Shown here: one piece after another, positions 23,775-37,034 of the stretch
Position numbering within the stretch: the stretch's first letter is position 1
Layout of the letters: each line of letters begins with the position of its first letter
NCBI RefSeq assembly: GCF_003369795.1
Contig: NZ_CP026730.1
Coordinates: 2,976,001-3,040,000 of the forward strand
Reading direction: 5' to 3'
DNA length: 64,000 bases
Origin: Streptomyces sp. CB09001
GTDB taxonomy: Bacteria; Actinomycetota; Actinomycetes; Streptomycetales; Streptomycetaceae
Made by a program: the position numbers and the translations under genes
The notes under the pieces: model-generated
Database searches by the model: none
The model's input: only the letters and a program-made list of their open reading frames with translations
Told to the model about the DNA's origin: nothing

Positions 23775-26700
23775 TCACCGCTCCGTTCCGCCGGCGGCGC
23801 GCCGCCGGTGCGGATCGGCCAGGAGGTGGCGGGGGTCGGTGGCGCGGGTGATGGCGGACTCGACGGCGGCGACGCGGTCCGCGAGCAGGCCCAGGGCGGC
23901 GACGGCACGGGTGAGCGGGTCGTCCTCCGGGCCGCCGAGGGTGCGGGCGCGGACGTGGGCGGTGCGCACCTCGGCCCAGCGGTCGGCCTCCTCGGGGGTG
24001 AGCGTGCCGCGCAGTTCGGCGAGCTTGAGGAGGTTGGCCTCGGCTCCGTGGGTGAGGGTCTGTGCCTCGGCCGTGTAGTGGTCGTCGAGGACGGCGGCGC
24101 GTTCGGCGTCGTTCATGACGGGGCGGATGCGCTGGGCGATCTTGTTCATGTTGCGGTAGGAGCCCTGGAGCCGGAAGGCGGGTTCCGTACGGGTCTCGTC
24201 CGACCGGGCCGCGGAGGCGATGTAGGCGGCGTTGACGGCCAGCACCGTCTCGCGGGCGGCCACGAGGTGGCGCAGGACGGACAGGATCCGCTCCAGTTCG
24301 GCCGGCGGTTGGGCGTGGGCGAGGCGGTCGGCGCGTGCGGTGGGGTCGCCGGTGGCGAGGCGGACGAGCAGCTCCAGGTCGGCGCGGTCGCGGCCGGCCA
24401 GCGGGGCCAGGACCGGGTTGGCGGTGAGCGCGTTCTCCAGGAAGCTGAGCGCGAAGGCCTCCTCCTTGCCGGTGAGGACGTCGCCGAGGTTCCAGACGTC
24501 GGCGCGGTTGGCGAGCATGTCGGGGACCTGGAAGCGGGCACCGGACTCGGTGTAGGGGTTGCCCGCCATGCAGACGGCGAAGCGCTTGCCGCGCAGGTCG
24601 TAGGTGCGGGGCGCGCCGTCCCACACGCCGTCCACCCGGCGGGTGGCGTCGCACAGCGGGATGAACTTCTGGAGGAGCTCCGGGGAGGTGTGCTGGATGT
24701 CGTCCAGGTAGAGCAGCGTGTTGTTCGCGGACGCCAGCGCGAAGTTGATCTTCTCGACCTCCTGGCGTGCGGTGGCGTTCGGCGCGTCGGCCGGGTCGAG
24801 CGAGGTGACGCCGTGACCGAGCGCGGGGCCGCCGACCTTCACCAGCATCAGCCCGAGGCGCTCGGCGACGTACTCGACCAGGGTCGTCTTGCCGTACCCG
24901 GGCGGGGAGAGCAGCAGCAGGAGGCCACCCGTGTCGGTGCGCTTGCCGTCGCCGGTGGCGCCGAGCTGTTTGGCCAGGCTGTCGCCGACGAGCGGCAGGT
25001 AGACCTCGTCCACGAGCCGGTTGCGGACGAAGGCGGACATGACGCGCGGCCGGTGGTCGTCCAGACGCAGGCGGGCCCGCTCGGCGCCCACGAGGGCGGT
25101 ACGGCGCCGCTGGTAGGCGCGGAACGCGGGGACGTCCTCGGCCGCGAAGCGGGCGGTACGGGCGAGGAACTCGTCGAGGCGCAGCGCCAGCCTGCCTCCG
25201 GTGATGCGCGGGTGGGCACCCAGCAGGCCCTCCGCGGTGGCCGTCGGCGGGGCGTCGCCGTCATAGCGGGGCAGGTCCGGGCACAGCTCGGCGGCGACCG
25301 CCTCGGCCAGGTCGCCGGGGGCGAGGCCGGCGCCGGTGGCGGCGGCGTACGACGAGATCCATGCCTCGGCGAGCTGCCCGCGGGCGGCCAGGTCGTCCAC
25401 CGCGGCCAGATCCTCGTCGTAGGCCGGGCCGCCCACGGTGCGGCGGAACTTCTCCAGGAGCGTGCGCGTACCGGCACCGAGAACGAAGCCGTCGGGGGCG
25501 GTGGTCAGTTCGTGGAAGAGGTACGCGGCGGCGGCTCGGGCGGTGTCCTCGCCGGTCACCGAGCCCGTCCGCGCCCACGCGCCGACGGCCTCCGCCAGTT
25601 CCTCCTCCAGGGCGGCGATCGCGGCCGAGAGGCCGAAGGTGTCGCGGGCGCGGGCCAGGGAACGGGCGCGCCGGGTCCAGGCCTCGCGCGCTCGCGGCGT
25701 GGTGCCGTGGACCCAGAAGAGCTGGGCGGCGGCGCGCGCGGCGGGCTCGTGGACGAGGGTCCCGGCCCGCTCGTACAGCGGCAGCAGCGCCGTCAGGACG
25801 ACCGTCGCGTCGTGGTCGTGGACGCCCCGCTCGTAGCCCTCGTCGTACGCCTCCTGCGCGGCCTCGCGGACGAGGGCGGGCAGGTCGTCGGCGCCGGCCA
25901 GGGCGCTCGCGCCGTGCTGCCGCAGCAGGCGGGCGGCGAGGTGTTCGGCGCGGTAGACGCCGGGGGACTCCGAGGGCAGGGTGCGGTCCCAGTGGGCGCG
26001 GGTGGCCGCGAAGTCCGGGTCGGTGACCGGCGAGCGGTAGTCCGTGCCGGTGAGGGCGAAGGCGAGGCCGTCGCCGTCCGGGACGAGGGTGAGGTCGAGG
26101 GGCTGGGTGTTGACGGCGAAGAGGTGGGCGCCCAGGCGCAAGGTGCGGCCGTCGTCGGCGTACAGGTCGGTGCGGTCGCGCAGGGCGCGGGTGGCCTCCT
26201 GGCGGGCCGATTTGAGGCGCCCGTCCAGTTCCTCCGCGCGGACGCTGTCGCCGAGGGCGCGCAGTTCCTCGGCGGTGCGGCGGACCTTGGCCGGCATGGG
26301 GTCGGAGGCGAAGTAGGTGCTGACCGCGTCGGCGTCGGCGAGGGTGGCGCACCGTCGGGTGACGGTCTCCATGATCCGGGCGGCGGAGGCGGCGAGTTGC
26401 TCGGCGCGGCGGGCGCGGGTGTCGGCGAGGGCCTGCTTGCGGGCGGCGAGCGCGTCGTAGATCTCGGTGCGCTTGTCGGCGAGTTCGGTGAGGAAGCCGT
26501 CGAACTCCGCGAAGCGGGACTCCAGGTCCTCCAGGCGGGCCAGCAGACGGGCGAGCTGGTCGTCGCAGCGCTCGGGGGTGTCGGCGGCGGCGAGCGCGGC
26601 GGTGACGGCCTGGCCGAGCAGGGCCGTCTCGGCGGTGAACTCGGCGCGGCCCTCCCGGTCGAGGAGGGCGCGGCGGCGGGCGTCGAGGGTGGCGCGGGCG

Positions 26701-28811
26701 CGGTTGACGCCGCCCAGGACGGCGGCGGCGCGTTCCAGCAGGGCGGTGCGGACGGTGGCGTCGCCCATGTCGAGTTCGGCGACGACGTCGGTGACCGTGC
26801 GCAGCCCGTCGGCGAGTTCGTCGAGCCGGGCCGCGACCGGTACGGCCTCGGCGACGGTGGTGATGGCCTCCGCGTCGGCGACGAGCGCCGCGACGTCCGC
26901 GCGCTGGGCGTCGAAGGCGTCCTCGCGGGCGAGGAAGGCCACGGCCCGCTGCCCCAGCTCGGCGAGCGACGTCTCGGCCTCCTCGGCCAGGGCGTCGATG
27001 CCGGGGGCGTCGGCGTACCGCAGCTCCTTGACGGTCAGCAGGTGCCCGTGGGCGTGCCGCAGTTCGGTCAGGCCCCGTACCCAGGCGGCGGCCTCCTTGG
27101 GCGCCTCGCCGCGCAGCCGCCGGACCACCGACGCGATCCGCTCGGCGGCCTCGTCACGGGCCTCGGCGGCCAGCCGGGTCAGGTCGCGCACCGTCTCGAA
27201 CTCGGCCAGCACCTGCTCGGCGGTCTCCCGGACCGCGGCCAGCGCGCCGGCCAGGTCGCCCAGGTCCGCCTCGCCCAGCCAGTGGTGGCCGTCGGCCGCG
27301 CGCACGCAGGAGGCGGCCAGCGCCCGGTAGCCCTCGGCGGTGGTGATGCCCTCGCCGACGGCCCCGGCGACGGACAGGCAGGCGGAGATGCCGCGCACCA
27401 GGTCGGCGTTGCCGACGCGAGCCAGCGGTCCGCTCCCGGCGGGCGCGGCGGCGGCGTGCGTGTCGGAGACGTACGGCGAGTGCCACAGCTGCACGGGGTG
27501 CACCTGGGCGGGTTCGTCGCCGTCCGCGCGCAGCACGGTGAAGGTGCCGTCCTCCGCCAGGGCCCAGCCCCGGCAGGGCAGCGGGTTGGCGACCTCCTTG
27601 CGGATGGTGTTGTACGACAGGAGCAGGCCCCGGCTCTCGCCGCGCGCGTGGAAGGCGTACAGCACGTCCTCGCCGTTCGGCGAGCGCACTTCCCGCTCGA
27701 ACTCCAGCCCGGTCGCGTCGAGTTCGTACGTCTTGTGGACGCCGGTGGCCAGGCAGTAGCCGCCGGGGAAGACGATGCCCTGGTCGTCGGGCAGGCGGCG
27801 GCAGGCCAGGCCGACGCCGTCCAGGCGGAGCACCGACTTGGTGAGGGTGTTGAAGACCAGGTGACGGTCGGTGTCCTCCTTGTAGGGCCGTACGCGCAGC
27901 AGGATCAGGGCGCCGACCCGGGCGTGCGCGATGTCGGCGTCGGCCAGGGACTGGAGGGGTTCGTCGACGGGCTCGGAGTAGACGCCCTCGGCGGTCTCGG
28001 TGTCGTCCTCCAGTTTGACGGTGAGGGCGCCGCCGACCGCGCTGACGTGGAACTCGCCGCGCACCGACACGTGCGGGTGGCGGCCCAGGACGTGGTCCTC
28101 GCGGGTGGCGGCGGTCCACTCGAAGTCGTGGGACGGCGGGAACACGTCGTCGCGTTCGCCCCGCGCGTCCAGGAAGGCCGCCCGCCCGTCCTCGGTCGGC
28201 TCCCAGCGCAGGACGCGGATGTCGTCGGCCTTCTCGCCGGTGCGGAAGACGGCCAGCAGTCTGCCGTCGACGGGACGCAGCCGCAGCAGCCGGGCCTGCC
28301 GGTAGTAGCGGTGCAGGTCCGCGAACTCCCGCACGAAGGCCGGGTCGTCGAGCAGGCCGGGCACGGCCGACTCGGGCAGCGGGTTCAGGTCGCGGTCGTA
28401 CAGCGTGAAGACGTCGGCCACGGCCGCCGTCCGGGTGCGGTGGCCCGGGCGGCCGGTGGAGCCGAGGAGCAGGGCGTCGCCGACGGCGACGAGGTCGCAC
28501 GGCACCCCCGGGTGCTCGGTGCGCAGCCGCTCGGTGGAGGCCAGTTCGAGCCGGGCCGAGCCGAACTCCTCCACCCGGCGGGTGTTGAGGAGGTCGGCGC
28601 GGCGGGCGAGGTCGGCGGTCTGCGCGGCGAGACGGTCGCGGAGCACCTCGTACGCGCCGGCGTCGGTGGCGTCGTACGTGCCGGTGAGGCCCGTCGCGGC
28701 CGTCGTGTCGGTGGCGGCCGTCGGGTCCGTGGTAGCCCTCGGGTCCGTGGTAGCCCTCGGGTCCGTGGCAGCCGTCGGGTCCGTGGTAGCCGTCTCCGCA
28801 GCGGTGGCCAT
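23775..28811 (-). CDS. Giant AAA ATPase, DUF3686-type ('DNA repair ATPase')
   Basis: A 1678-residue protein. After a Thr-Asp-Ala repeat (about residues 5-38) there is a long N-terminal beta-rich region, then helical and coiled-coil segments (about 560-920). A C-terminal AAA+ domain has Walker A SPPGYGKTTLVEYVAERLG, Walker B NTLLYLDDIQHTSPELLQKF and KRFAVCMAGNPYTESG. The architecture matches the DUF3686 family annotated as DNA repair ATPase, whose role is not established. It sits 87 bases downstream of a flotillin gene in the same direction; these two families are often neighbours. ATG 28811 has GGAAGGA upstream. The opposite strand carries a spurious 2418-codon frame. Confidence 0.85.
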   Translation of the reverse strand: MATAAETATTDPTAATDPRATTDPRATTDPTAATDTTAATGLTGTYDATDAGAYEVLRDRLAAQTADLARRADLLNTRRVEEFGSARLELASTERLRTEHPGVPCDLVAVGDALLLGSTGRPGHRTRTAAVADVFTLYDRDLNPLPESAVPGLLDDPAFVREFADLHRYYRQARLLRLRPVDGRLLAVFRTGEKADDIRVLRWEPTEDGRAAFLDARGERDDVFPPSHDFEWTAATREDHVLGRHPHVSVRGEFHVSAVGGALTVKLEDDTETAEGVYSEPVDEPLQSLADADIAHARVGALILLRVRPYKEDTDRHLVFNTLTKSVLRLDGVGLACRRLPDDQGIVFPGGYCLATGVHKTYELDATGLEFEREVRSPNGEDVLYAFHARGESRGLLLSYNTIRKEVANPLPCRGWALAEDGTFTVLRADGDEPAQVHPVQLWHSPYVSDTHAAAAPAGSGPLARVGNADLVRGISACLSVAGAVGEGITTAEGYRALAASCVRAADGHHWLGEADLGDLAGALAAVRETAEQVLAEFETVRDLTRLAAEARDEAAERIASVVRRLRGEAPKEAAAWVRGLTELRHAHGHLLTVKELRYADAPGIDALAEEAETSLAELGQRAVAFLAREDAFDAQRADVAALVADAEAITTVAEAVPVAARLDELADGLRTVTDVVAELDMGDATVRTALLERAAAVLGGVNRARATLDARRRALLDREGRAEFTAETALLGQAVTAALAAADTPERCDDQLARLLARLEDLESRFAEFDGFLTELADKRTEIYDALAARKQALADTRARRAEQLAASAARIMETVTRRCATLADADAVSTYFASDPMPAKVRRTAEELRALGDSVRAEELDGRLKSARQEATRALRDRTDLYADDGRTLRLGAHLFAVNTQPLDLTLVPDGDGLAFALTGTDYRSPVTDPDFAATRAHWDRTLPSESPGVYRAEHLAARLLRQHGASALAGADDLPALVREAAQEAYDEGYERGVHDHDATVVLTALLPLYERAGTLVHEPAARAAAQLFWVHGTTPRAREAWTRRARSLARARDTFGLSAAIAALEEELAEAVGAWARTGSVTGEDTARAAAAYLFHELTTAPDGFVLGAGTRTLLEKFRRTVGGPAYDEDLAAVDDLAARGQLAEAWISSYAAATGAGLAPGDLAEAVAAELCPDLPRYDGDAPPTATAEGLLGAHPRITGGRLALRLDEFLARTARFAAEDVPAFRAYQRRRTALVGAERARLRLDDHRPRVMSAFVRNRLVDEVYLPLVGDSLAKQLGATGDGKRTDTGGLLLLLSPPGYGKTTLVEYVAERLGLMLVKVGGPALGHGVTSLDPADAPNATARQEVEKINFALASANNTLLYLDDIQHTSPELLQKFIPLCDATRRVDGVWDGAPRTYDLRGKRFAVCMAGNPYTESGARFQVPDMLANRADVWNLGDVLTGKEEAFALSFLENALTANPVLAPLAGRDRADLELLVRLATGDPTARADRLAHAQPPAELERILSVLRHLVAARETVLAVNAAYIASAARSDETRTEPAFRLQGSYRNMNKIAQRIRPVMNDAERAAVLDDHYTAEAQTLTHGAEANLLKLAELRGTLTPEEADRWAEVRTAHVRARTLGGPEDDPLTRAVAALGLLADRVAAVESAITRATDPRHLLADPHRRRAAGGTER
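28690..28800 (-). repeat. 18-base coding repeats at the ATPase N-terminus
   Basis: The first codons after the start repeat a unit encoding Thr-Asp-Pro-Arg-Ala-Thr and close variants. On the plus strand this reads as repeated GGGTCCGTGGTAGCC blocks. The length variation would stay in frame. Confidence 0.7.
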
Positions 28812-28898
28812 GAGCGGTTGGTCCTTCCAGGAAGCGAGGGGGTGCCGAAGCCGCCGACCCCCGTACGGCGGTCCCGGCACCCGGTCTGTGGTGGCCGG

Positions 28899-30932
28899 TC
28901 AGGCCCTGGCCGTGCCGTTCAGGGCGGTGAGCGGGGTGTCGGCGAGGCCGAGCTCGCCCGCGCGGTCCAGGAGGCGCTGCACCTGCCCGGCGTCCGTGCC
29001 GCCCGACTTCATCAGCTTCATCAGCAGCGCGGAGACCGTCAGGTTCTGCACGTCCGCCGTGGAGAAGGAGCCCAGTACGCGGGTCAGGTCGTCGGTGAAG
29101 CTCGACGAGCCGTCCAGCCAGGGCCCGGCGAGGGCCCGCGCGGTCTCGGAGTGCTTGACGAACCCGTCGACGCCCTTGCCGAGCGCGACCGAGGACATCA
29201 GGCGGTCGAAGAAGACCGTGTCGCCGCCGACGATGTCGATGTCGGCGTTCTCCAGGCCGGTGGCGAGCACCGTGGCCTGCGCCTCGGCGACCTGCCGCTG
29301 CACGTCCAGGCCGGCCAGCCGGATGTCCTTCTCCGCCTCCAGGCGCAGCCGGTACTCCTCGTGACCGCGCGAGGCGTCGTCCAGGGCGGCCATCGCCGCG
29401 GCCTTCTCGGTGAGTCCCGCGGCCTCCGCCTTCAGCTTGCTGCCGATGGCCTCCGCCTCGGCGAGGGCCTTGGCCCGCGCGCCCTCGGCCTCGGCACGCA
29501 TCCGGGCCCCGGTCGCCTCCGCCTCCGCGCGGCCCGCCTTCTCGATGACCTCGGCCTCCTTGTCGCGGACCTGGACCGCCGCAAGGCCCGCCGCGGCCGC
29601 CTCGGCCTGGATGCCCTCGGCCATCCGCAGCTTGGCCTGCGCCTCCAGGTCGGCGCTCTTCAACCGGGCCTCGGCCATGGTGAGTTCCTCGGCGGCACGG
29701 TGGCCGGCCGCGGCCTCCGCCGCCTCGGCCGCCTTGATGTCCTTGACCAGCCGCTCCTGCGCCTGGGCCTCGGCGGCGATGATCACGGTCTGCCGGTCCC
29801 GCTCCGCCTCCTCCACGGCGCGCAGCTTCTTGATGGACTCCTCCTGCTCGGCGACCGTGCGGTCCACGGCGACGCGCTCGCGGATGACCTCGGCGATGTC
29901 CCGCCGCTCGGCCTCGACCTCCTTCTCGGCGGCGATCCGGGTCAGCTCGGTCTCCCGCTCCCGGCCGATGACCTCCAGCATGCGGTCCTTCTCGATGCGC
30001 TCGTTCTCCACGGCGATGACCCGCTCGCGGTTCTTCGCGGCGACCGCGACCTCGCGGGCCTGGTTCTCGCGCTGCACGCCGAGCTGCTCCTCCGTGCGCA
30101 GGAACGCCGCCTGCGCGCGCAGCCGCTCCTCCTCCACCACCCGTGCCGTCTCGGCCTCCTCGCGGGCCCGGGTGGTGTCGATCTCGCGCTTCTGCTTGAT
30201 CTCGGCGTCGGCCTGCCGGCGCTCCAGCTCCAGTACGGCCTCGCGCGCGTCGACGTTCTGCCGGGTGATCTCCTTCTCCTCGGTGCGCCGCGCCTCGTTG
30301 GTGCGCACGTGCTCCACGGCCGTCAGCTCGGTGATCTTCCGGATGCCCTGGGCGTCGAGGACGTTGGCCGGGTCCAGCTGGGTCAGCGGCGTCTGCTCCA
30401 GGTAGTCGATCGCCGCGTCCTCCAGGTGGTACCCGCTGAGGTCGACGCCGATGACCTCGATGATCCGGTACCGAAGCTCCTCGCGCTTGGTGTAGAGGTC
30501 GGTGAAGTCCAGCTGCTTGCCGACGGTCTTCAGCGCCTCGGAAAACTTCGCGTGGAACAGCTCCTGCAGCGTGTCCCGGTCGCTGGCGCGGGCCGTGCCG
30601 ACCGCCTGGGCGACCTTGACGACGTCCTCGACGGTCTTGTTGACCTTGACGAAGAAGGTGATGCGGATGTCCGCCCGGATGTTGTCCCGGCAGATCAGCC
30701 CCTCCTTGCCGGCCCGCGTGATCTCGATCGTCTTGACCGAGATGTCCATCACCTCGGCCCGGTGCAGCACCGGCAGCACCACCTGGCCGGTGAAGGTCAC
30801 GTCCACCTTGCGCATCTTCGAGACGATCAGCGCCTTGCCCTGCTCCACCTTGCGGAAGAGCCGCGAGACGCCGAACAGCGCGACGGCGAGGAGGAGCAGG
30901 CAGACGAGGGCGAGGACACCGATGACTTCCAT
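28899..30932 (-). CDS. Flotillin / SPFH-domain membrane protein
   Basis: A 677-residue flotillin. A single N-terminal TM (VIGVLALVCLLLLAVALFGV) is followed by an SPFH domain (about 28-200, including EQGKALIVSKMRKVDVTFTG and DLSGYHLEDAAIDYLEQTPL). A long Glu/Ala/Arg-rich coiled coil (200-540) and a C-terminal oligomerisation part follow. Flotillins organise membrane microdomains in the cell membrane. It is the upstream gene of the operon with the DUF3686 ATPase, which suggests the ATPase acts on a membrane-associated scaffold. Confidence 0.93.
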   Translation of the reverse strand: MEVIGVLALVCLLLLAVALFGVSRLFRKVEQGKALIVSKMRKVDVTFTGQVVLPVLHRAEVMDISVKTIEITRAGKEGLICRDNIRADIRITFFVKVNKTVEDVVKVAQAVGTARASDRDTLQELFHAKFSEALKTVGKQLDFTDLYTKREELRYRIIEVIGVDLSGYHLEDAAIDYLEQTPLTQLDPANVLDAQGIRKITELTAVEHVRTNEARRTEEKEITRQNVDAREAVLELERRQADAEIKQKREIDTTRAREEAETARVVEEERLRAQAAFLRTEEQLGVQRENQAREVAVAAKNRERVIAVENERIEKDRMLEVIGRERETELTRIAAEKEVEAERRDIAEVIRERVAVDRTVAEQEESIKKLRAVEEAERDRQTVIIAAEAQAQERLVKDIKAAEAAEAAAGHRAAEELTMAEARLKSADLEAQAKLRMAEGIQAEAAAAGLAAVQVRDKEAEVIEKAGRAEAEATGARMRAEAEGARAKALAEAEAIGSKLKAEAAGLTEKAAAMAALDDASRGHEEYRLRLEAEKDIRLAGLDVQRQVAEAQATVLATGLENADIDIVGGDTVFFDRLMSSVALGKGVDGFVKHSETARALAGPWLDGSSSFTDDLTRVLGSFSTADVQNLTVSALLMKLMKSGGTDAGQVQRLLDRAGELGLADTPLTALNGTARA

Positions 30933-31306
30933 GGCATACGTCCTTACGGCATGAGGCGGCTGTCACGGCGGCCGGACGAGCGCGGCCGGCCGCCGCCGAT
31001 GTTGGTGTGGTGACGCCCGTGCGGACAGGCGTGGTTCCGGGGGCGGGTCTTCGGACGGACCACGCCCGCGCCGGGCCCCCGGCAGAGGCGGTGAGCGGGT
31101 CTCAGACGGCGCGGCGGCCGTGCGCCGCGACACCGGCGGCGCGAGACGCGCGGCCGGGTTCGTCCGGGCGGGGGCGGAGTTGGTGGAGGGGGCGGACGAA
31201 CGGACTGTGCGTCGTGTTCGTCGTCATCGCCCGGCCCCCTCTCCGCGGTGCTCCCCCGTGCGCCCCATGATGCGTGACCGCGCCACCTATCCGCATTGCC
31301 GGTTTC
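30933..31306. other. Intergenic region between the flotillin gene and locus C
   Basis: About 370 bases between divergent units. Apart from the doubtful 41-codon ORF at 31102-31227, I see no gene. The right part merges into the regulatory repeats upstream of locus C. Confidence 0.5.
31102..31227 (-). CDS. Possible 41-residue ORF, unknown
   Basis: MTTNTTHSPFVRPLHQLRPR begins a 41-codon frame with a purine-rich GGAGAGGGGG upstream. Composition is Arg/Pro-rich and no family is recognised. It may be non-coding. Confidence 0.25.
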   Translation of the reverse strand: MTTNTTHSPFVRPLHQLRPRPDEPGRASRAAGVAAHGRRAV

Positions 31307-31434
31307 CGGAAGCGTTCACCAGGGCTTGGGTGCCGGTGAGCCGCCCGGGGCGATCAGCGGGGCGACCGACGGTCCGGCCATACCGGAAGCCGATCGGAAG
31401 CGCATCGGAACCCCGGAAATCTGGTTCCGGAAGC
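31307..31434 (+). promoter_or_regulatory. SARP-like heptamer direct repeats upstream of locus C
   Basis: CGGAAGC occurs at 31384-31390 and 31395-31401, then CGGAACC at 31406-31412, each separated by exactly 4 bases (11-base period). Further CGGAAGC copies at 31307 and 31428 fall on the same 11-base register. Heptamers with 4-base spacers on one DNA face are the classic binding site of SARP/OmpR-type winged-helix activators. A protein with this DNA-binding module is encoded at 34844-36301 in the same cluster. Function is inferred. Confidence 0.6.
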
Positions 31435-31494
31435 GCCGCCACTGGTCGGATCGGGCGATGCACATGGCACATCGGCCCACTCGGGACGCGTGCC

Positions 31495-31514
31495 GTATCC
31501 GCCCGGCCGGATAC
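31495..31514. promoter_or_regulatory. Inverted repeat just before the first locus C gene
   Basis: GTATCCG (31495-31501) and CGGATAC (31508-31514) form a perfect 7-base dyad with a 6-base spacer, 20 bases before the ATG at 31535. It may be an operator. Confidence 0.4.
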
Positions 31515-31534
31515 CGGCGGCAATGAGGTGACAG

Positions 31535-32272
31535 ATGAGCAGTACACGCGTCCCGTCCGGCGCCAGGGGTTCCTACCCCGCACCGGGGCTCGCACTCACG
31601 CCCGGCCCCGTACGCAACCAGGCCCTGGCCGTGATCGCGGTCCCCTTCGTCCTCATAGTCGTGCTGGCCGTCGTGCTCGCCACGACCGGCCCGGACGACG
31701 GAGCGCCCGCCACCGACGGGCTCTACGGCAGCGGAGCGCTGCCGGACTGGGGGTCGGGCACGACCGACGAGGGCACGGCCGACGACGGCACCTCGGAGGA
31801 CGGCACCGACCCCGACGGCACGTACGGCGGCAACGGCACGTACGAGGACGGCACTTACGGCGACGACACGTACGACGACGGCACGTACGGCGACGGCACC
31901 ACGGACGAGACCCCCACGGACGACACCACGACCGGCGACACCGCGACCGACGACCCCGCCGCCGAGGACACCACCGCCGACGGGAGCGGGCCGGAGGCGA
32001 CCGTGACGGCGTACTTCGACGCCATCAACAACCGTGATTTCGCGGCCGCGTGGGAGCTGGGCGGCAGGAACCTCGACCAGGACTACGACTCCTTCGTCGC
32101 CGGCTTCGGGACGACGCAGCGGGACGACGTCACCGTGACCGGCACGTCCGGCGACGACGTCTCGGTCACGGTCGTGGCCTGGGAGACCGACGGCACGCAG
32201 ACGACGTACGAGGGCACCTACACGGTCAGCGGCGGCGTCATCACCTCGGCCGACATGCGGGAAGGGAACTGA
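31535..32272 (+). CDS. Membrane-anchored NTF2-like protein with acidic repeat linker
   Basis: A 245-residue protein. A single TM (LAVIAVPFVLIVVLAVVLAT) follows about 28 cytosolic residues. Residues ~55-150 are Asp/Gly/Thr/Tyr repeats (GTYGDDTYDDGTYGDG). The end has an NTF2-like pattern: ATVTAYFDAINNRDFAAAWE, then VTGTSGDDVSVTVVAWETDG. The NTF2-like part probably lies outside the cell as a ligand-binding or structural unit. The ATG has GAGGTG 5 bases upstream. It is the first gene of cluster C1, 6 bases before the next; its role there is unknown. Confidence 0.65.
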   Translation: MSSTRVPSGARGSYPAPGLALTPGPVRNQALAVIAVPFVLIVVLAVVLATTGPDDGAPATDGLYGSGALPDWGSGTTDEGTADDGTSEDGTDPDGTYGGNGTYEDGTYGDDTYDDGTYGDGTTDETPTDDTTTGDTATDDPAAEDTTADGSGPEATVTAYFDAINNRDFAAAWELGGRNLDQDYDSFVAGFGTTQRDDVTVTGTSGDDVSVTVVAWETDGTQTTYEGTYTVSGGVITSADMREGN

Positions 32273-32278
32273 GCAACC

Positions 32279-33871
32279 ATGACCACCCACGCCGCCCCGC
32301 CGCCCCCGGACACGACGAGCAACGCCACCCGCCTGCTGTGCGCGGGCACCTACCTCGACCCCGTCTACCGCAAGGCCGTCATCCGGGAGCTGCTGACCCA
32401 CCGCTACCGGGTGGTGGCCCCCTCCTACGGCTACGACGCCGCGCCCGTCCTGGCGCACGCCCTGGCCGCCCACAACCTGCGCCGCAACCAGCTGATCGCC
32501 CTCGGGGCGGGCGCGGCCGTCATCGCGCTGCTCATGGCCGCGGACGTGCTGGGCGGCTGGACGGCCGCCCTGTTCGCGTTCTGGCTCGCCTGGGCCACGA
32601 TGTTCCTGCGCAGGCTCGCCGTCCTGCAGGCCCTCGCCGAGCACCTCGCGCCCCCGGCGGACGACCGCCCCGGATTCGACGGCTCCCACCCGATCACCTC
32701 GCGCCTCACCCCGGAGCTGGTCGGCAAGATCAACCGGGAGCAGGCCTCGGACACCGTGTACTACGGCGGCTACAAGCCGTTCATCGGCGCGGGCCACTCG
32801 GTCAAGCGGTGGGCCAACGCGGAACTGCTGCTCGGCGCCCCGAGGTCCCGGGCCGGCGCGCTCGGCCAGACCCTGCTCAACGGGCACGTCCCCGCCCAGC
32901 ACGGACCGGCGGACGGCACGGACGGCACGGACGGAGCCGGGCGGACGGAACGCAAGCCGATCATCCCCTTCACGGTCGAGGACATCACCACCCGGGTCTG
33001 CGAGGAACTGCTCGCGGAACTGCGCGACAAGCCCGCGCCGAGCGACCGCGTCGAACTGCTCTCCGTCGACCGGCGCCGGTTCACCAAGGCGGTGCGGACC
33101 GCCGAGGGCAGCGACCCCGTCGCCGTGCTCCTGGACACGCCCGACCCCGGCCACCCCGACCACACCGCCGCACACTGGCGGGAGGACTACGACGCCCGCC
33201 GCGAGTACCTGTGCGTCCGCATCGGAGCCTGGCAACAGGAGCTGGTCACCTCGGTGTTCATCGGCTTCGACATCAAGGGCAGCACCCTGCACACCGAGTT
33301 CTACACCTACGTGCTCGGTCCCCTGCCGGAGAGCTTCCACCTCGCCGACCGGCTGCCGGCCGCCATCGACGGCAAGCTCATGTGCCGCATCGCCTGGGAC
33401 GTGACCCGCAGCGCGCCCGGCGAGCTGCTGCGGCTGATCACCAACCCGCTGCGCGAACGGCTGCCCAGCCGCTTCTCCACCGACACCGTCCGCAAGCTGG
33501 TCGGCCAGCCCGCCGACACCAGCGAGTTCCGGCTCGGCCGCTACGCCCTGACCGCGGTGGACTGCGGCGCCCTCACCAGCGTCCGCGAGCTGGCGCCCGA
33601 CCACGCCTTCCACCACTTCTTCCAGGAGTCGGACGCGATCAAGTACATCCAGATCATCGAGCGCCACCTGTTGCAGATCGTCGGCGACTTCCTGCGCGAC
33701 CACGACGTCGACACCCGGGAGCACGAGGCGAACCAGACCAACATCCTCCAGCAGAACTTCGGCGCCAACAGCACCAACAACTTCGGCGGCAACCAGAGCG
33801 TCGGCAACACCAACACCACCCAGACCTTCGGCAACAACTCCGGCGTCACCAGGGAGGCACGGCAGGCATGA
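32279..33871 (+). CDS. Two-TM protein of unknown function with C-terminal NFG-rich tag
   Basis: A 530-residue protein. RLLCAGTYLDPVYRKAVIRE is near the start; two membrane helices lie at about residues 63-110 (ALGAGAAVIALLMAADVL and AALFAFWLAWATMFL). A ~370-residue cytosolic region has no fold I recognise. The last ~40 residues hold an Asn/Gly/Phe/Thr-rich tag (QQNFGANS, STNNFGGNQS, TTQTFGNNS) that recurs at the N-terminus of the next protein. Its stop overlaps the next start (ATGA), so the two are coupled. The shared tag suggests they associate; amyloid-type homotypic binding is one possibility. Confidence 0.6.
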   Translation: MTTHAAPPPPDTTSNATRLLCAGTYLDPVYRKAVIRELLTHRYRVVAPSYGYDAAPVLAHALAAHNLRRNQLIALGAGAAVIALLMAADVLGGWTAALFAFWLAWATMFLRRLAVLQALAEHLAPPADDRPGFDGSHPITSRLTPELVGKINREQASDTVYYGGYKPFIGAGHSVKRWANAELLLGAPRSRAGALGQTLLNGHVPAQHGPADGTDGTDGAGRTERKPIIPFTVEDITTRVCEELLAELRDKPAPSDRVELLSVDRRRFTKAVRTAEGSDPVAVLLDTPDPGHPDHTAAHWREDYDARREYLCVRIGAWQQELVTSVFIGFDIKGSTLHTEFYTYVLGPLPESFHLADRLPAAIDGKLMCRIAWDVTRSAPGELLRLITNPLRERLPSRFSTDTVRKLVGQPADTSEFRLGRYALTAVDCGALTSVRELAPDHAFHHFFQESDAIKYIQIIERHLLQIVGDFLRDHDVDTREHEANQTNILQQNFGANSTNNFGGNQSVGNTNTTQTFGNNSGVTREARQA

Positions 33872-34617
33872 GCGGCCAGCAGTTCCACGGCAACGGCTTC
33901 GGTCAGGGCAGCACCAACAACTTCGGGGGCAACCAGAGCACCGGCAACACCGACACCACCCAGACCTTCGGCGACAACTCCCCCGTCCACGCCGCGCCGC
34001 CCGCGCCGTCCGCCCCGCCCGCACAGCCGTACGCCGACGGGTGGCGGCGCCCGGCCACCGCGGTGCCCTCAGACGCCGAGCGGGCCCGCGGCGTCTTCGT
34101 CGTGCACGGCCGCGACGACCAGGTGCGGCGCGAGATGTACGAACTGCTGCGCCGGCTCGACCTGCGGCCCAAGGAGTGGGAGGACCTGGTCCGGGCGACC
34201 GGCCAGGCCTCCCCCTTCCTCGGCGACGTGGTCGCGGGAGCCCCCGCCCAGGCCCAGGCGGCGCTGGTCCTGCTCACCCCGGACGACATCGTCACCCTCC
34301 ACCCGGACCTGCGCGGCCACGACGAACCGGACCACGAGACCCGGCCGGTGTGCCAGCCGCGCCCGAACGTCCTGATCGAGCTGGGCATGGTGCTGATGGC
34401 CTACCCGGAGCGCACGCTGATCGTCGAGGTCGGCGGGGTGCGGCCGATCGCCGACATCGCCGGCCGCAACGTCATCCGCTTCGACGGCTCCGAGACGGCG
34501 CTGGGCAAGATCGTGGAACGGCTGAAACTGGCGGGCTGCACGGTCAACGACACCGGCTCGGACTGGCGCCAGACCTACCCCTTCCGCCACCTGTCGGCCT
34601 ACCACCGCCGGCCGTAG
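33868..34617 (+). CDS. TIR-like nucleotide-binding protein (PF10137/CAP12 type) with NFG-rich N-tag
   Basis: A 249-residue protein. Residues 11-37 carry the same STNNFGGNQS...TTQTFG tag as the preceding protein. A Pro/Ala linker leads to the TIR-like domain (about 70-225): GVFVVHGRDDQVRREMYELL, EWEDLVRATGQASPFLGDVV, AALVLLTPDDI, and RPNVLIELGMVLMAYPERTL with the Glu expected to be catalytic. This is the predicted nucleotide-binding TIR-like family (PF10137), seen as an NAD-cleaving effector in CBASS and related systems. It lies just before the BTAD-Macro gene; it may make the nucleotide signal that the Macro domain reads (inference). Confidence 0.8.
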   Translation: MSGQQFHGNGFGQGSTNNFGGNQSTGNTDTTQTFGDNSPVHAAPPAPSAPPAQPYADGWRRPATAVPSDAERARGVFVVHGRDDQVRREMYELLRRLDLRPKEWEDLVRATGQASPFLGDVVAGAPAQAQAALVLLTPDDIVTLHPDLRGHDEPDHETRPVCQPRPNVLIELGMVLMAYPERTLIVEVGGVRPIADIAGRNVIRFDGSETALGKIVERLKLAGCTVNDTGSDWRQTYPFRHLSAYHRRP

Positions 34618-34680
34618 GCGTCCTGCCACCGCCGGCGCAGTCGCCCGGCGGATCCGGCGCCGCTCGGGGGACCGGCGCAA

Positions 34681-34730
34681 CCGGCCCCCGGGGCACGTCC
34701 CGTCACCGCGGTACGTGTCCCGGGGGCCGG
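34681..34730 (+). terminator. Strong hairpin between the TIR-like and BTAD-Macro genes
   Basis: An 18-base arm (34681-34698) pairs with 34713-34730 with a single G-U pair. It would end transcription of the upstream C1 genes. The AT-rich stretch ACAATTGATACGCT at about 34769-34782 could then be a separate promoter for the BTAD-Macro gene. Confidence 0.65.
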
Positions 34731-34843
34731 CCCGCACCAACCGGCCGAAACCACAACTCCCCCAAACGGACAATTGATACGCTGCCGACACCTCTCCCGC
34801 GACCACCGGTCGGGAGAGTGTGAAGCGAGTGGAGACCACTTGT

Positions 34844-36301
34844 ATGGCGCGCATCCGTGTGAGCGTCCTGGGTCCGGCCAGGCTCGAAATCGACGGCGCA
34901 CCCGCCCGGTTGACCCCGTTGACGACACGGCTGCTGGTCCGGCTGGTGGCGGCGGACGGCGAGCCCGTGCCGGTGCGCCGACTGCACCGGGACGTGTGGG
35001 CACTCGCCGGCGACCAGCCGCACGCGGCGCAGCGCCACCGCAACGAAGTGCAAAAACGCGTCCTCGAACTGCGCCGCGCCCTCGATCCCGCGCAGCGCGG
35101 TGACGGCGCCCGGGTGCTGCGCACCGAGCAACTGCTGGCCGGCCCGGCGCCCGAGACGGCGTACCGGCTGGTGCTCGCGCCCGACGAACTGGACTGCGCG
35201 GAGTTCACCGACCTGGTCGACTCCGCGCTGCTCGCGGCGCCCGCGTCGGCCGCCGACCGGCTGGCCGCGGCGCTGGCCCTGGTGCGCGGCCGTCCCCTGG
35301 CCGAGGCGGGCGACGAGGACTTCGCCCGGCCGCTGGTGCGCCGGCTCACCGCGCTGTACGAGACCGCCCGCCGCCAGCTGATCCGCAGCCGGATGGACCT
35401 GGGCCGCCACGACCTCGCGCTGCCGGTCGCGGAACGGATGGCCCGGGAGCGGCCGGACGACCAGGACGTCGCCGAGCTGCTCGGCGCCCTGCGGACCCGG
35501 CTGCGCGAGCGGCACGGACGGGAACTGCTGCGGCAGCCGTTCCCCGGCGCCGGTGACCTCGTGGTGGTGCGGGGCGACCTGTTCGACCAGGAGGACGCCA
35601 ATCTGGTCGTCGGGTTCACCGACACCTTCGACACCGCCACCGAGCAGGATCTGGTGATCAGCCGGGACAGCGTCCAGGGCCAGCTGGTGGAGCGGCTGTT
35701 CGGCGGGGAGCGCAAGCTGCTGGACGACCGGATCCAGGCCGGGCTGAGGGCGTTCCGGCCGCTGCGCACCGAGCGGCCCCAGGACAAGCCGCGCGGCCGG
35801 CGCGTCCGCTACCCCCTGGGCACCACCGTGCCGCTGACGGTGGACGGCCGCCGGGTCTTCGCCGTGGCCTACTCCCGGCTCGGCAACGACCTCGTCGCCC
35901 GCTCCGGACCGGCCGATCTGCGGGCGAGCCTGGACACCCTGTGGCCGGCCGTCGCCCGGTACGGCATGTACCGGCCGCTCGCGATCCCCCTGATCGGCTC
36001 CGGTCTCGCCCGGATCGTGGAGCTGGACCGCACCCGGCTGCTGCTCATGATCGTGGAGAGCTTCGCCGACCACTGCCGCCGCGATCCGGCGACCGCCCCC
36101 GAGCTGCGCGTCGTGATCCGCCCGGCCGACCTGGAGCGGACCGACCTGTCGGCGCTCGGCACTTATCTGCGCACCGCGCGACTGCCCGGCACCAACAGCA
36201 CCGCCGACTCCGGCACCAGCGCCGACGTCGGCGCCGGCACCGGGAGCCAGGACACCGGTGCCGGCGCCGGCGACAGCGGTGGGGCGTACGGCCGCCGGTG
36301 A
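34844..36301 (+). CDS. SARP-like winged-helix/BTAD protein fused to a ThsA-type Macro domain
   Basis: A 485-residue fusion. Residues 1-105 form an OmpR/SARP winged helix (RIRVSVLGPARLEIDG, ARLTPLTTRLLVRLVAADGE, VQKRVLELRRALDP). Residues ~110-225 are a BTAD helical domain. From ~238 there is a Macro-like domain of the Thoeris type II ThsA class (DUF6430): VVVRGDLFDQEDANLVVGFT, TFDTATEQDLVISRDSVQGQ, RVRYPLGTTVPL, and PLAIPLIGSGLARIVELD. ThsA Macro domains bind a TIR-made ADP-ribose derivative and normally drive a membrane effector. Here the output domain is DNA-binding instead. ATG 34844 is used; a GTG at 34820 is in frame. A poor acidic/Ser-Gly tail ends the protein. Confidence 0.8.
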   Translation: MARIRVSVLGPARLEIDGAPARLTPLTTRLLVRLVAADGEPVPVRRLHRDVWALAGDQPHAAQRHRNEVQKRVLELRRALDPAQRGDGARVLRTEQLLAGPAPETAYRLVLAPDELDCAEFTDLVDSALLAAPASAADRLAAALALVRGRPLAEAGDEDFARPLVRRLTALYETARRQLIRSRMDLGRHDLALPVAERMARERPDDQDVAELLGALRTRLRERHGRELLRQPFPGAGDLVVVRGDLFDQEDANLVVGFTDTFDTATEQDLVISRDSVQGQLVERLFGGERKLLDDRIQAGLRAFRPLRTERPQDKPRGRRVRYPLGTTVPLTVDGRRVFAVAYSRLGNDLVARSGPADLRASLDTLWPAVARYGMYRPLAIPLIGSGLARIVELDRTRLLLMIVESFADHCRRDPATAPELRVVIRPADLERTDLSALGTYLRTARLPGTNSTADSGTSADVGAGTGSQDTGAGAGDSGGAYGRR

Positions 36302-36417
36302 CGTCGACATGCCTTTACGGCATCAGGGACTCCGCTTCCGGAACCAGCGGCCCACCGCTTCCGAACCGCTTCCGGTTCCGGGTTCCGGCACCGGTCCGCG
36401 CGGGTCGGCGGCCGTTC
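36302..36417. repeat. GGTTCCGG/CCGGAACC repeat cluster between convergent C1 and C2
   Basis: Several CGCTTCCGG and GGTTCCGG copies fill this gap. CGCTTCCGGAACCAG (36333-36347) is the exact inverted copy of 31421-31435. The arms can fold into hairpins, so it may end transcription from both sides. Its heptamers only partly keep an 11-base period. Confidence 0.55.
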
Positions 36418-36975
36418 CTACCGGGAGTCCGCCCGGCGCGCGGCCCCCTCCGGCCACACGACGTCGACGGGGATCCCCGCCGCCCGGGCCGCGAGCACCA
36501 GGTCGGCGGTGCCGCCGCCCCGGCCGCTGGGCGGTTCGCCGTTCCACACGGCCACCAGCCGGTCGGCACGTTCGAGGAGCAGGGCGTTGGCGGCCTCGTA
36601 CGCCTGCCGGTCGGCCCTCTCGCGGGGCAGGACGACGACCTCGTCGGCGGCTGCGGCGAGACGGTCGAAGAGGGGGGCGTCGTCGGGCTCGACCGTGCTG
36701 CGGCGGTAGTCCCGCGAGGGGACGACGACGACCAGGCGACCGCCGACGGCCAGTACGGCTTCGGCGAACAGCGAGTCGGCCCCCTTGGCGATGCAGGAGA
36801 TCCCGACGAGCGGCTTCCCTGAGCCCCGGTCCCAGCTCTGACCCCAGTCCCGGTCCTGGTCCCGATCTTGGTCCAAGTCCCGGTACCGGGCCAGCAGTTC
36901 GTCCAGGGCGGCGCGGACCGCGGGGACGCTCTCCTCCGTCAGGTCCATGTGCCCGGTCACCGCGAGGGCCGTCAC
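36418..36975 (-). CDS. SLOG (DprA/LOG-like) family nucleotide-sensor protein
   Basis: A 185-residue Rossmann-like protein: TALAVTGHMDLTEESVPAVR, then GISCIAKGADSLFAEAVLAV, LVVVVPSRDYR, YEAANALLLERADRLVAVWN and GGTADLVLAARAAGIPVDVV. This order matches SLOG-type sensors. SLOG proteins are thought to bind or hydrolyse NAD- or nucleotide-derived ligands. An Asp/Arg/Gln-rich insertion (DLDQDRDQDRDWGQSWDRG) after the first helix is unusual. It is the last gene of cluster C2, after the SLATT-like membrane protein; SLOG plus SLATT is an established computational pairing. Confidence 0.8.
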   Translation of the reverse strand: MTALAVTGHMDLTEESVPAVRAALDELLARYRDLDQDRDQDRDWGQSWDRGSGKPLVGISCIAKGADSLFAEAVLAVGGRLVVVVPSRDYRRSTVEPDDAPLFDRLAAAADEVVVLPRERADRQAYEAANALLLERADRLVAVWNGEPPSGRGGGTADLVLAARAAGIPVDVVWPEGAARRADSR

Positions 36976-37034
36976 GGTCTCCCCCTCGGTCGATGGCCTG
37001 CCGGCAGGCCCCGGATCCTATCGCGGCCCGTGGC

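Follow-up and report, generated by a model that had tools for sequence, protein, structure and literature searches.

The SARP proteins are the best-known activator family of Streptomyces and have been studied mainly for antibiotics. The window considered here, a stretch of 64,000 nucleotides of Streptomyces DNA, carries a series of short, regularly spaced repeats ahead of genes that include one for a TIR protein, and the question is which protein recognizes these repeats and what it might accomplish there. An earlier note, prepared from the window alone, had proposed that the repeats are SARP-type heptamers, that a SARP-like protein encoded in the same cluster binds them, and that the arrangement amounts to an autoregulated, signal-responsive operon. 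We examined these proposals by comparing orthologous loci, surveying Streptomyces genomes and predicting protein folds.

A phased heptamer array upstream of the TIR gene

Five heptamers had been reported in the region, and all five are present: CGGAAGC at 31307, 31384, 31395 and 31428, and CGGAACC at 31406, each on the plus strand. Four of them form a single array with 11-bp phasing, a period of one helix turn, as had been claimed, and this phasing is far above chance. The first member, H1 (CGGAAGC, 31384-31390), is conserved in orthologues and is followed after a 4-base spacer by H2 (CGGAAGC, 31395-31401). H3 (CGGAACC, 31406-31412) is a weaker copy, and close orthologues carry CGGAACT, CGGAACG, CGGAACC or CGGAAGC at its position. 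H4 starts at 31428, 44 bp from H1, and forms with a preceding CTG the unit CTGGTTC CGGAAGC (31421-31434).

The remaining copy (31307-31313) lies 77 bp before H1. It had been counted with H4 as keeping the 11-base register; H4 does belong to the array, whereas the copy at 31307 is in register but not conserved. Because its position is empty of CGGAAGC in all 11 close orthologues examined, we ruled it out as a member of the array; its register is probably a product of chance, and it probably lies outside the operator. A fifth heptamer in the fourth 11-bp slot (31417) was also ruled out, since the bases there are AAATCTG. A promoter scan found no sigma-70-like or consensus promoter after the upstream array. 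The hexamer CACTGG at 31440 resembles the afsS -10 element CACTGT, but it varies among orthologues, and we therefore do not claim a promoter role for it.

Repeats of this kind might reflect chance or low-complexity sequence in GC-rich DNA. Single heptamers indeed occur in the window at chance frequency (31 matches to CGGAASC versus 31.4 expected from shuffles), and Streptomyces DNA contains numerous 11-bp microsatellites whose spacers are identical. It is the phasing that departs from expectation: pairs of the form CGGAASC-N4-CGGAASC occur three times in 64 kb versus 0.007 times per simulated window, and a phased triple occurs once versus in none of 150 simulated windows. A scan for any heptamer repeated three times at an 11-bp period, with at most one mismatch, picked up the upstream array on both strands and, apart from it, only a single low-complexity run of CCGCCGC. 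Throughout the 7.79 Mb genome, CGGAAGC-N4-CGGAAGC is found in only two places, the upstream array and an array behind the SARP gene. The degenerate form CGGAASC-N4-CGGAASC has four genomic matches, comprising two overlapping ones in the upstream array, one in the downstream array and one unrelated CGGAACC pair. A chance origin also runs counter to the conservation at orthologous loci described below, and we give it practically no weight.

Conservation of the arrays at orthologous loci

Our comparison began with 27 orthologues (L001-L027), to which others from more Streptomyces genomes were added. The counts that follow refer to 33 loci, namely the window and 32 orthologues, leaving out three loci with another layout (L044-L046), a relic (L047), a locus without the regulator (L050) and a duplicate of L014 (L053). 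Upstream sequence is lacking for L004, L017 and L026, and downstream sequence for L009. The usual layout consists of the upstream array, three genes that we call TMDT, TMdom and TIR, a macro gene on the minus strand, the regulator gene SARP-macro, and a second array facing inward. Directly upstream of the first array in the window are a very large gene (23775-28880, minus strand) and, adjoining it, a gene (28899-30932, minus strand) that looks flotillin-like by eye and has no Pfam or NCBIfam match; a flotillin-like gene occupies this place in L007, L008 and L051 as well.

The earlier note had named a search for the same repeats at orthologous clusters as its check, and the exact phased pair was found upstream, at the same spacing, in 25 of 30 loci; downstream it is present in 26 of 32. 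When CGGAANN words are admitted, these counts become 29 of 30 and 30 of 32. The misses are L049 upstream, which is scored as such though only about six bases precede its first gene, and L020 and L048 downstream. The exact pair occurs in the opposite orientation at none of the 33 loci, and elsewhere it occurs nowhere in 458,486 bp. The arrays thus accompany SARP-macro through orthologues of 61-95% identity, and they also do so in three of 43-49%.

An inward-facing array behind the regulator gene

The second array, overlooked in the earlier note, lies on the minus strand at 36334-36374, directly behind the SARP-macro gene. Its heptamers are at 36334-36340, closest to the SARP-macro stop codon, at 36357-36363, 23 bp from the first, and at 36368-36374, a further 11 bp away. 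By eye, a CTG-N4-CGGAAGC unit like that at H4 closes most downstream arrays, and a CTG stands at an equal distance before the last heptamer of both arrays in the window and in close orthologues. The 0/11/34 spacing of most downstream arrays also occurs upstream in L013 and L052, and in L027 with one variant word. In a set of 20 downstream arrays picked for having the common geometry, the heptamer columns are invariant (21 of 21) versus only 8 of 84 other columns. Spacers thus vary and heptamers do not, which is contrary to the microsatellite pattern, and the orthologue comparison already refutes a chance origin.

The downstream array is directed back towards the regulator gene, and we see no evident target there. 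It may drive an antisense transcript, support looping or act as a reserve site. A terminator or RNA element behind SARP-macro was ruled out: the repeats are direct and so form no common stem, and the fold z-score is -1.9. No terminator-like site was found behind the gene, no promoter consensus behind the array, and no Rfam match within 31000-37000. Farther along, the window encodes a 185-aa protein (36418-36975, minus strand) that looks SLOG-like by eye and has no Pfam match; among the loci compared for flanking genes, the window shares such a gene behind SARP-macro with L002, L003 and L051 only.

A SARP fused to a ThsA-type macro domain

SARP-macro (34844-36301, plus strand) comprises a winged helix, a BTAD and a ThsA-type macro domain (residues 240-426). 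The SARP-like winged helix that had been read at these coordinates is borne out by the predicted fold, which matches EmbR (2ff4) and AfsR (8hvr, 8k60); Pfam Trans_reg_C scores below its cut-off (17.1 of 26.2 bits). The BTAD is recognized by PF03704 (33.8 bits versus a cut-off of 22.1), and the macro domain by PF20016 (1.5e-50) and as ThsA by PADLOC. The AlphaFold2 model (mean pLDDT 82) best matches the ThsA macro structures 8r66, 8v6q, 8v6r and 8v6s, of which 8v6q and 8r66 are also matched to the macro domain by sequence. EmbR and AfsR come next, and their winged helix and BTAD correspond to the N-terminal half of SARP-macro. By its macro-domain match and its EmbR/AfsR fold match, the regulator thus unites a SARP and a Thoeris-type sensor in one protein. 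In L051 (genome G118) the SARP-macro gene is split at residues 151/152 by a frameshift or a sequencing error.

The additional macro gene of the usual layout, on the minus strand, separates TIR from SARP-macro in 24 of 28 loci (for example, L022:5993-6830), and is missing from the window, L005, L009 and L020, and also from L051. We call it TM-macro because the L022 product contains a macro domain of the ThsA type and because two hydrophobic helices were computed at the N-terminus for L001 and L022; the name also rests on sequences from ten loci. We compared six of the pocket or stabilising residues named in PMC11204291 (D83, D100, N114, S175, S217 and T220) in both proteins by alignment, using our own residue count. 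Every one of the 26 SARP-macro rows and 13 TM-macro rows retains the equivalents of EcThsA D83, D100 and S175. In both proteins alike N114 is replaced by Q and T220 by A or S, and S217 is variable; because these positions differ from EcThsA, the ligand may differ as well. Since the same residues are kept and changed in the two proteins, SARP-macro and TM-macro of one locus probably sense one ligand class. That the regulator responds to a signal, as had been proposed, is plausible for a protein whose ThsA-type macro domain keeps several ADPR-pocket residues.

Which protein uses the arrays?

Our survey covered 199 Streptomyces genomes, 14 of which carry SARP-macro (that of G118, in two pieces, was counted as full); G092 has a fragment. 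The exact pair has 105 matches in these genomes. By hand counts of the match table, made twice, 23 of the matches fall within 12 of 15 SARP-macro loci (including the G092 fragment), which leaves 82 elsewhere, a number similar to the 74 matches of a reversed control pattern. Among the 14 genomes with SARP-macro, G068, G177 and G182 lack the exact pair. Seven genomes have a macro gene without SARP-macro, and none of them has the exact pair at that gene.

At three divergent loci, L044-L046 (43-49% identity), SARP-macro is partnered by a CATRA-N/CATRA-C-TIR fusion instead of TMDT, TMdom and TIR. The heptamers there immediately precede SARP-macro, and their orientation with respect to the gene is reversed. 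Only L044 and L045 contain the exact pair, and in L044 and L046 the heptamers are followed by TTAGACT, which resembles a good -10 element. Two homologues from other actinobacterial families (L087 and L088) carry no phased array. L088 (about 42% identity) has an altered recognition helix and an adjoining TIR match. L087 (55% identity) shows words of the CGGAASC type at four places some 190-290 bases before the gene, none of them phased, and no match to TIR, TMdom or TMDT within the 8.8 kb examined, of which about 270 bases lie behind the gene.

That the CGGAAGC heptamers constitute a SARP-type operator, as the earlier note had it, is well supported: the arrays follow SARP-macro through near and divergent orthologues, and the N-terminus of the regulator is predicted to fold like AfsR and EmbR. 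Sequence comparison makes it highly probable that SARP-macro itself is the protein that binds them. We considered whether another regulator of 11-bp direct repeats, such as a different SARP or a PhoP-type protein, might occupy the arrays while SARP-macro acts elsewhere. The genome encodes at least two other proteins with SARP-like N-termini. In addition, G056, a genome without SARP-macro, has five phased CGGAAG-type words (L050:9776-9826, minus strand) between an esterase gene and a phosphatidylglycerol lysyltransferase gene, which implies that another protein can use such words. The relic L047 (3695-9041) likewise retains both arrays although its SARP match is limited to residues 11-160. However, confinement of the CGGAAGC pair to the two ends of one locus in the genome would be odd for a global regulator, and wherever pairs outnumber the control across the 199 genomes, the surplus falls at SARP-macro loci. 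Furthermore, at L044-L046 the heptamers stay with SARP-macro despite changed neighbours and layout, which argues against another regulator. Overall, we regard this alternative as quite unlikely.

The inward-facing arrays could also be read as the ends of a mobile element, that is, as words bound by a transposase and not as operators. They flank the locus, and in L047 they are kept with a replaced interior, whose genes look by eye like those for an aquaporin, a glycerol kinase and a dehydrogenase. Moreover, the window's flanking genes were not found near the distant orthologues L013-L027. Yet none of the nine window genes tested has a transposase match, the downstream flanking genes are the same in 11 of 13 group-1 loci (the window and L001-L012), and the heptamers of L044-L046 are located beside the regulator start instead of at two ends. 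An empty-site comparison by two flanking genes yielded no usable synteny. We consider a mobile-element origin very improbable and retain the operator reading.

The array-headed genes and their covarying tails

The upstream array heads three genes on the plus strand. The product of TMDT (31535-32272) contains a single hydrophobic helix and an acidic linker rich in Thr, Asp and Gly, and it has no family match. TMdom (32279-33871) encodes a membrane-type protein with an N/G/Q-rich C-terminal tail and no family match above cut-off; its predicted fold had a mean pLDDT of 49.8 and was not used. The third gene (33868-34617) encodes a CAP12/PCTIR-type TIR protein, an enzyme of a type that cleaves NAD, matched by PF10137 (5.5e-27) and by PADLOC PDC-S35 instead of ThsB models, for which no match was found.

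A TIR homologue with E<=1e-45 is present in 14 of 14 genomes with SARP-macro, where its gene lies beside that of the regulator, and in 0 of 185 others (Fisher p 9e-22), with both this cut-off and the 14-genome set chosen after the tables were seen; at 1e-20, three further genomes have one. TMdom matches with E below 1e-130 occur in 11 genomes, all within the 14. Weak TMdom relatives (1e-21 to 1e-25) were found at four sites, and at three of these the genome lacks SARP-macro.

The tail of TMdom (approximately 33749-33847) and the N-terminal tail of the TIR protein (approximately 33898-33987) carry a common N/G/Q-rich motif, which varies from locus to locus and does so in step in both proteins. 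We scored the tails of each locus against its own and shuffled partners, leaving out L020 and L051 and taking the whole TIR protein of L054 as its tail (L054 is not among the representatives mentioned below). For 28 loci, the own-pair score is 3062 versus a shuffled mean of 1807 (sd 139), and for 11 representatives it is 1097 versus 582 (sd 76); in each case none of 20,000 shuffles reaches the observed value. The own partner is the best tail match for 9 of the 11 representatives. Shared ancestry of whole loci contributes to this covariation, and the use of representatives reduces but does not remove its share.

A possible regulatory circuit

We think it likely, all told, that both arrays are operators of SARP-macro and that this regulator senses a nucleotide made by the TIR protein and raises expression of the TIR operon. 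SARP-macro would be expressed from its own promoter, and the TIR protein, once activated, would produce an ADP-ribose-type nucleotide that the ThsA-type macro domain would bind. Binding side by side in the manner of AfsR, the SARP part would then occupy the phased heptamers and increase transcription of TMDT-TMdom-TIR, creating positive feedback. Of the individual steps, control of SARP-macro by the TIR product is, in our estimate, evenly balanced between true and false, and activation is moderately favoured over repression.

With the opposite sign, SARP-macro would repress both the TIR operon and itself until the nucleotide frees it from the heptamers. Repression would suit a harmful TIR enzyme, and arrays at both ends of the locus could support a loop. 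However, SARPs described so far are mainly activators, and AfsR rescues poor promoters, according to portions of PMC10936776 and PMC10972967. The BTAD domain of SARP-macro also speaks against repression, which we consider unlikely on balance.

The autoregulated operon that the earlier note had envisaged is supported only in part. A -10-like box, TACGCT (34778-34783, plus strand), is a candidate promoter ahead of SARP-macro, with no heptamers within 320 bases. The distance from this box to the SARP-macro match is 52-73 bases in the 26 of 28 loci that have it (all except L013 and L027), and the 320 bases ahead of SARP-macro are heptamer-free in 22 of 28; L007, L011, L015, L018 and L023 have one heptamer in this interval, and L027 has three unphased ones. 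Given the TACGCT box, the heptamer-free stretch and, in the 24 loci noted above, an opposite-strand macro gene ahead, SARP-macro probably lies outside the operon of the array and probably has its own heptamer-free promoter here. Direct autoregulation is suggested only by the three divergent homologues L044-L046, in which heptamers come just before SARP-macro; in loci of the window type, the array that follows the gene gives a looser hint.

Comparison with known systems

To our knowledge, the effectors targeted by the bacterial TIR signals described so far either kill the cell or stall it. Tentatively, and with more doubt than confidence, we propose that a TIR-made ADP-ribose nucleotide is here read by a transcription factor in which a Thoeris macro sensor is fused to a SARP. 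In most orthologues the signal would have two readers, a TM-macro effector and a gene switch that works through arrays at both locus ends, and the TIR protein would be activated by the amyloid-like tail, specific to each locus, of a membrane protein. If this is true, then immune signalling becomes transcriptional and the SARP family is linked to defence-like systems. Pairs of CGGAAGC at a distance of 11 bp, inward-facing at either end of a locus, would serve as a genome marker. In the open library searched, we found no publication joining SARP, TIR domain, Streptomyces and macro domain; a SARP-macro fusion does not appear among the matches listed, and the term SARP is absent from PMC8195603.

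The targets of SARPs, as described in part of PMC10972967, are direct repeats of heptamers separated by 4-15 nt, and CGGAAGC-N4-CGGAAGC has this form, consistent with a role as a target. A close parallel is the operator of PimR, a SARP-LAL protein, with three CGGCAAG heptamers and 4-bp spacers, two of the heptamers being needed for binding (excerpts of PMC5930380). Both systems have at least three 7-bp direct repeats at an 11-bp period and a SARP domain fused to a larger part. They differ in that the word here is CGGAAGC and not CGGCAAG, the C-terminal part is a macro domain and not an ATP-binding part, the putative target is a TIR operon and not an antibiotic regulator gene, and a second, inward-facing array lies behind the regulator.

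AfsR of Streptomyces coelicolor, with its afs box, shares the winged helix and BTAD fold (8hvr, 8k60) and the 11-bp repeats. Sections of PMC10936776 report that it binds two such repeats side by side in rescuing poor promoters, and describe SARP promoters as poor in general. Unlike SARP-macro with its ThsA-type macro domain, AfsR has a NOD-TPR part and responds to ATP and kinases (portions of PMC10972967 and PMC10936776).

The tails of TMdom and TIR resemble bacterial amyloid signalling pairs, whose BASS motifs have been reported on TIR proteins too (in parts of PMC7889193; see also portions of PMC8086366). As in those pairs, adjacent genes share a short, N/G/Q-rich, locus-specific tail motif, here TMdom and TIR. 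The partner in this case is a membrane-type protein, in contrast to BASS, and neither partner has an NLR or NTPase match in Pfam.

According to part of PMC11204291, ADPR and imidazole adenine dinucleotide are ligands of ThsA macro domains. The TM-macro type of Thoeris (EcThsA, PcThsA) has in common with our locus the PF20016 macro domain, a nearby TIR gene and, in the loci with a further macro gene, a TM-macro protein wherever that gene was inspected. The signal of this Thoeris type is His-ADPR. In contrast to Thoeris, the TIR protein here is of the CAP12/PCTIR type (PF10137, PDC-S35) and not ThsB, the window has no TM-macro gene, and the macro domain forms one polypeptide with a DNA-binding regulator.
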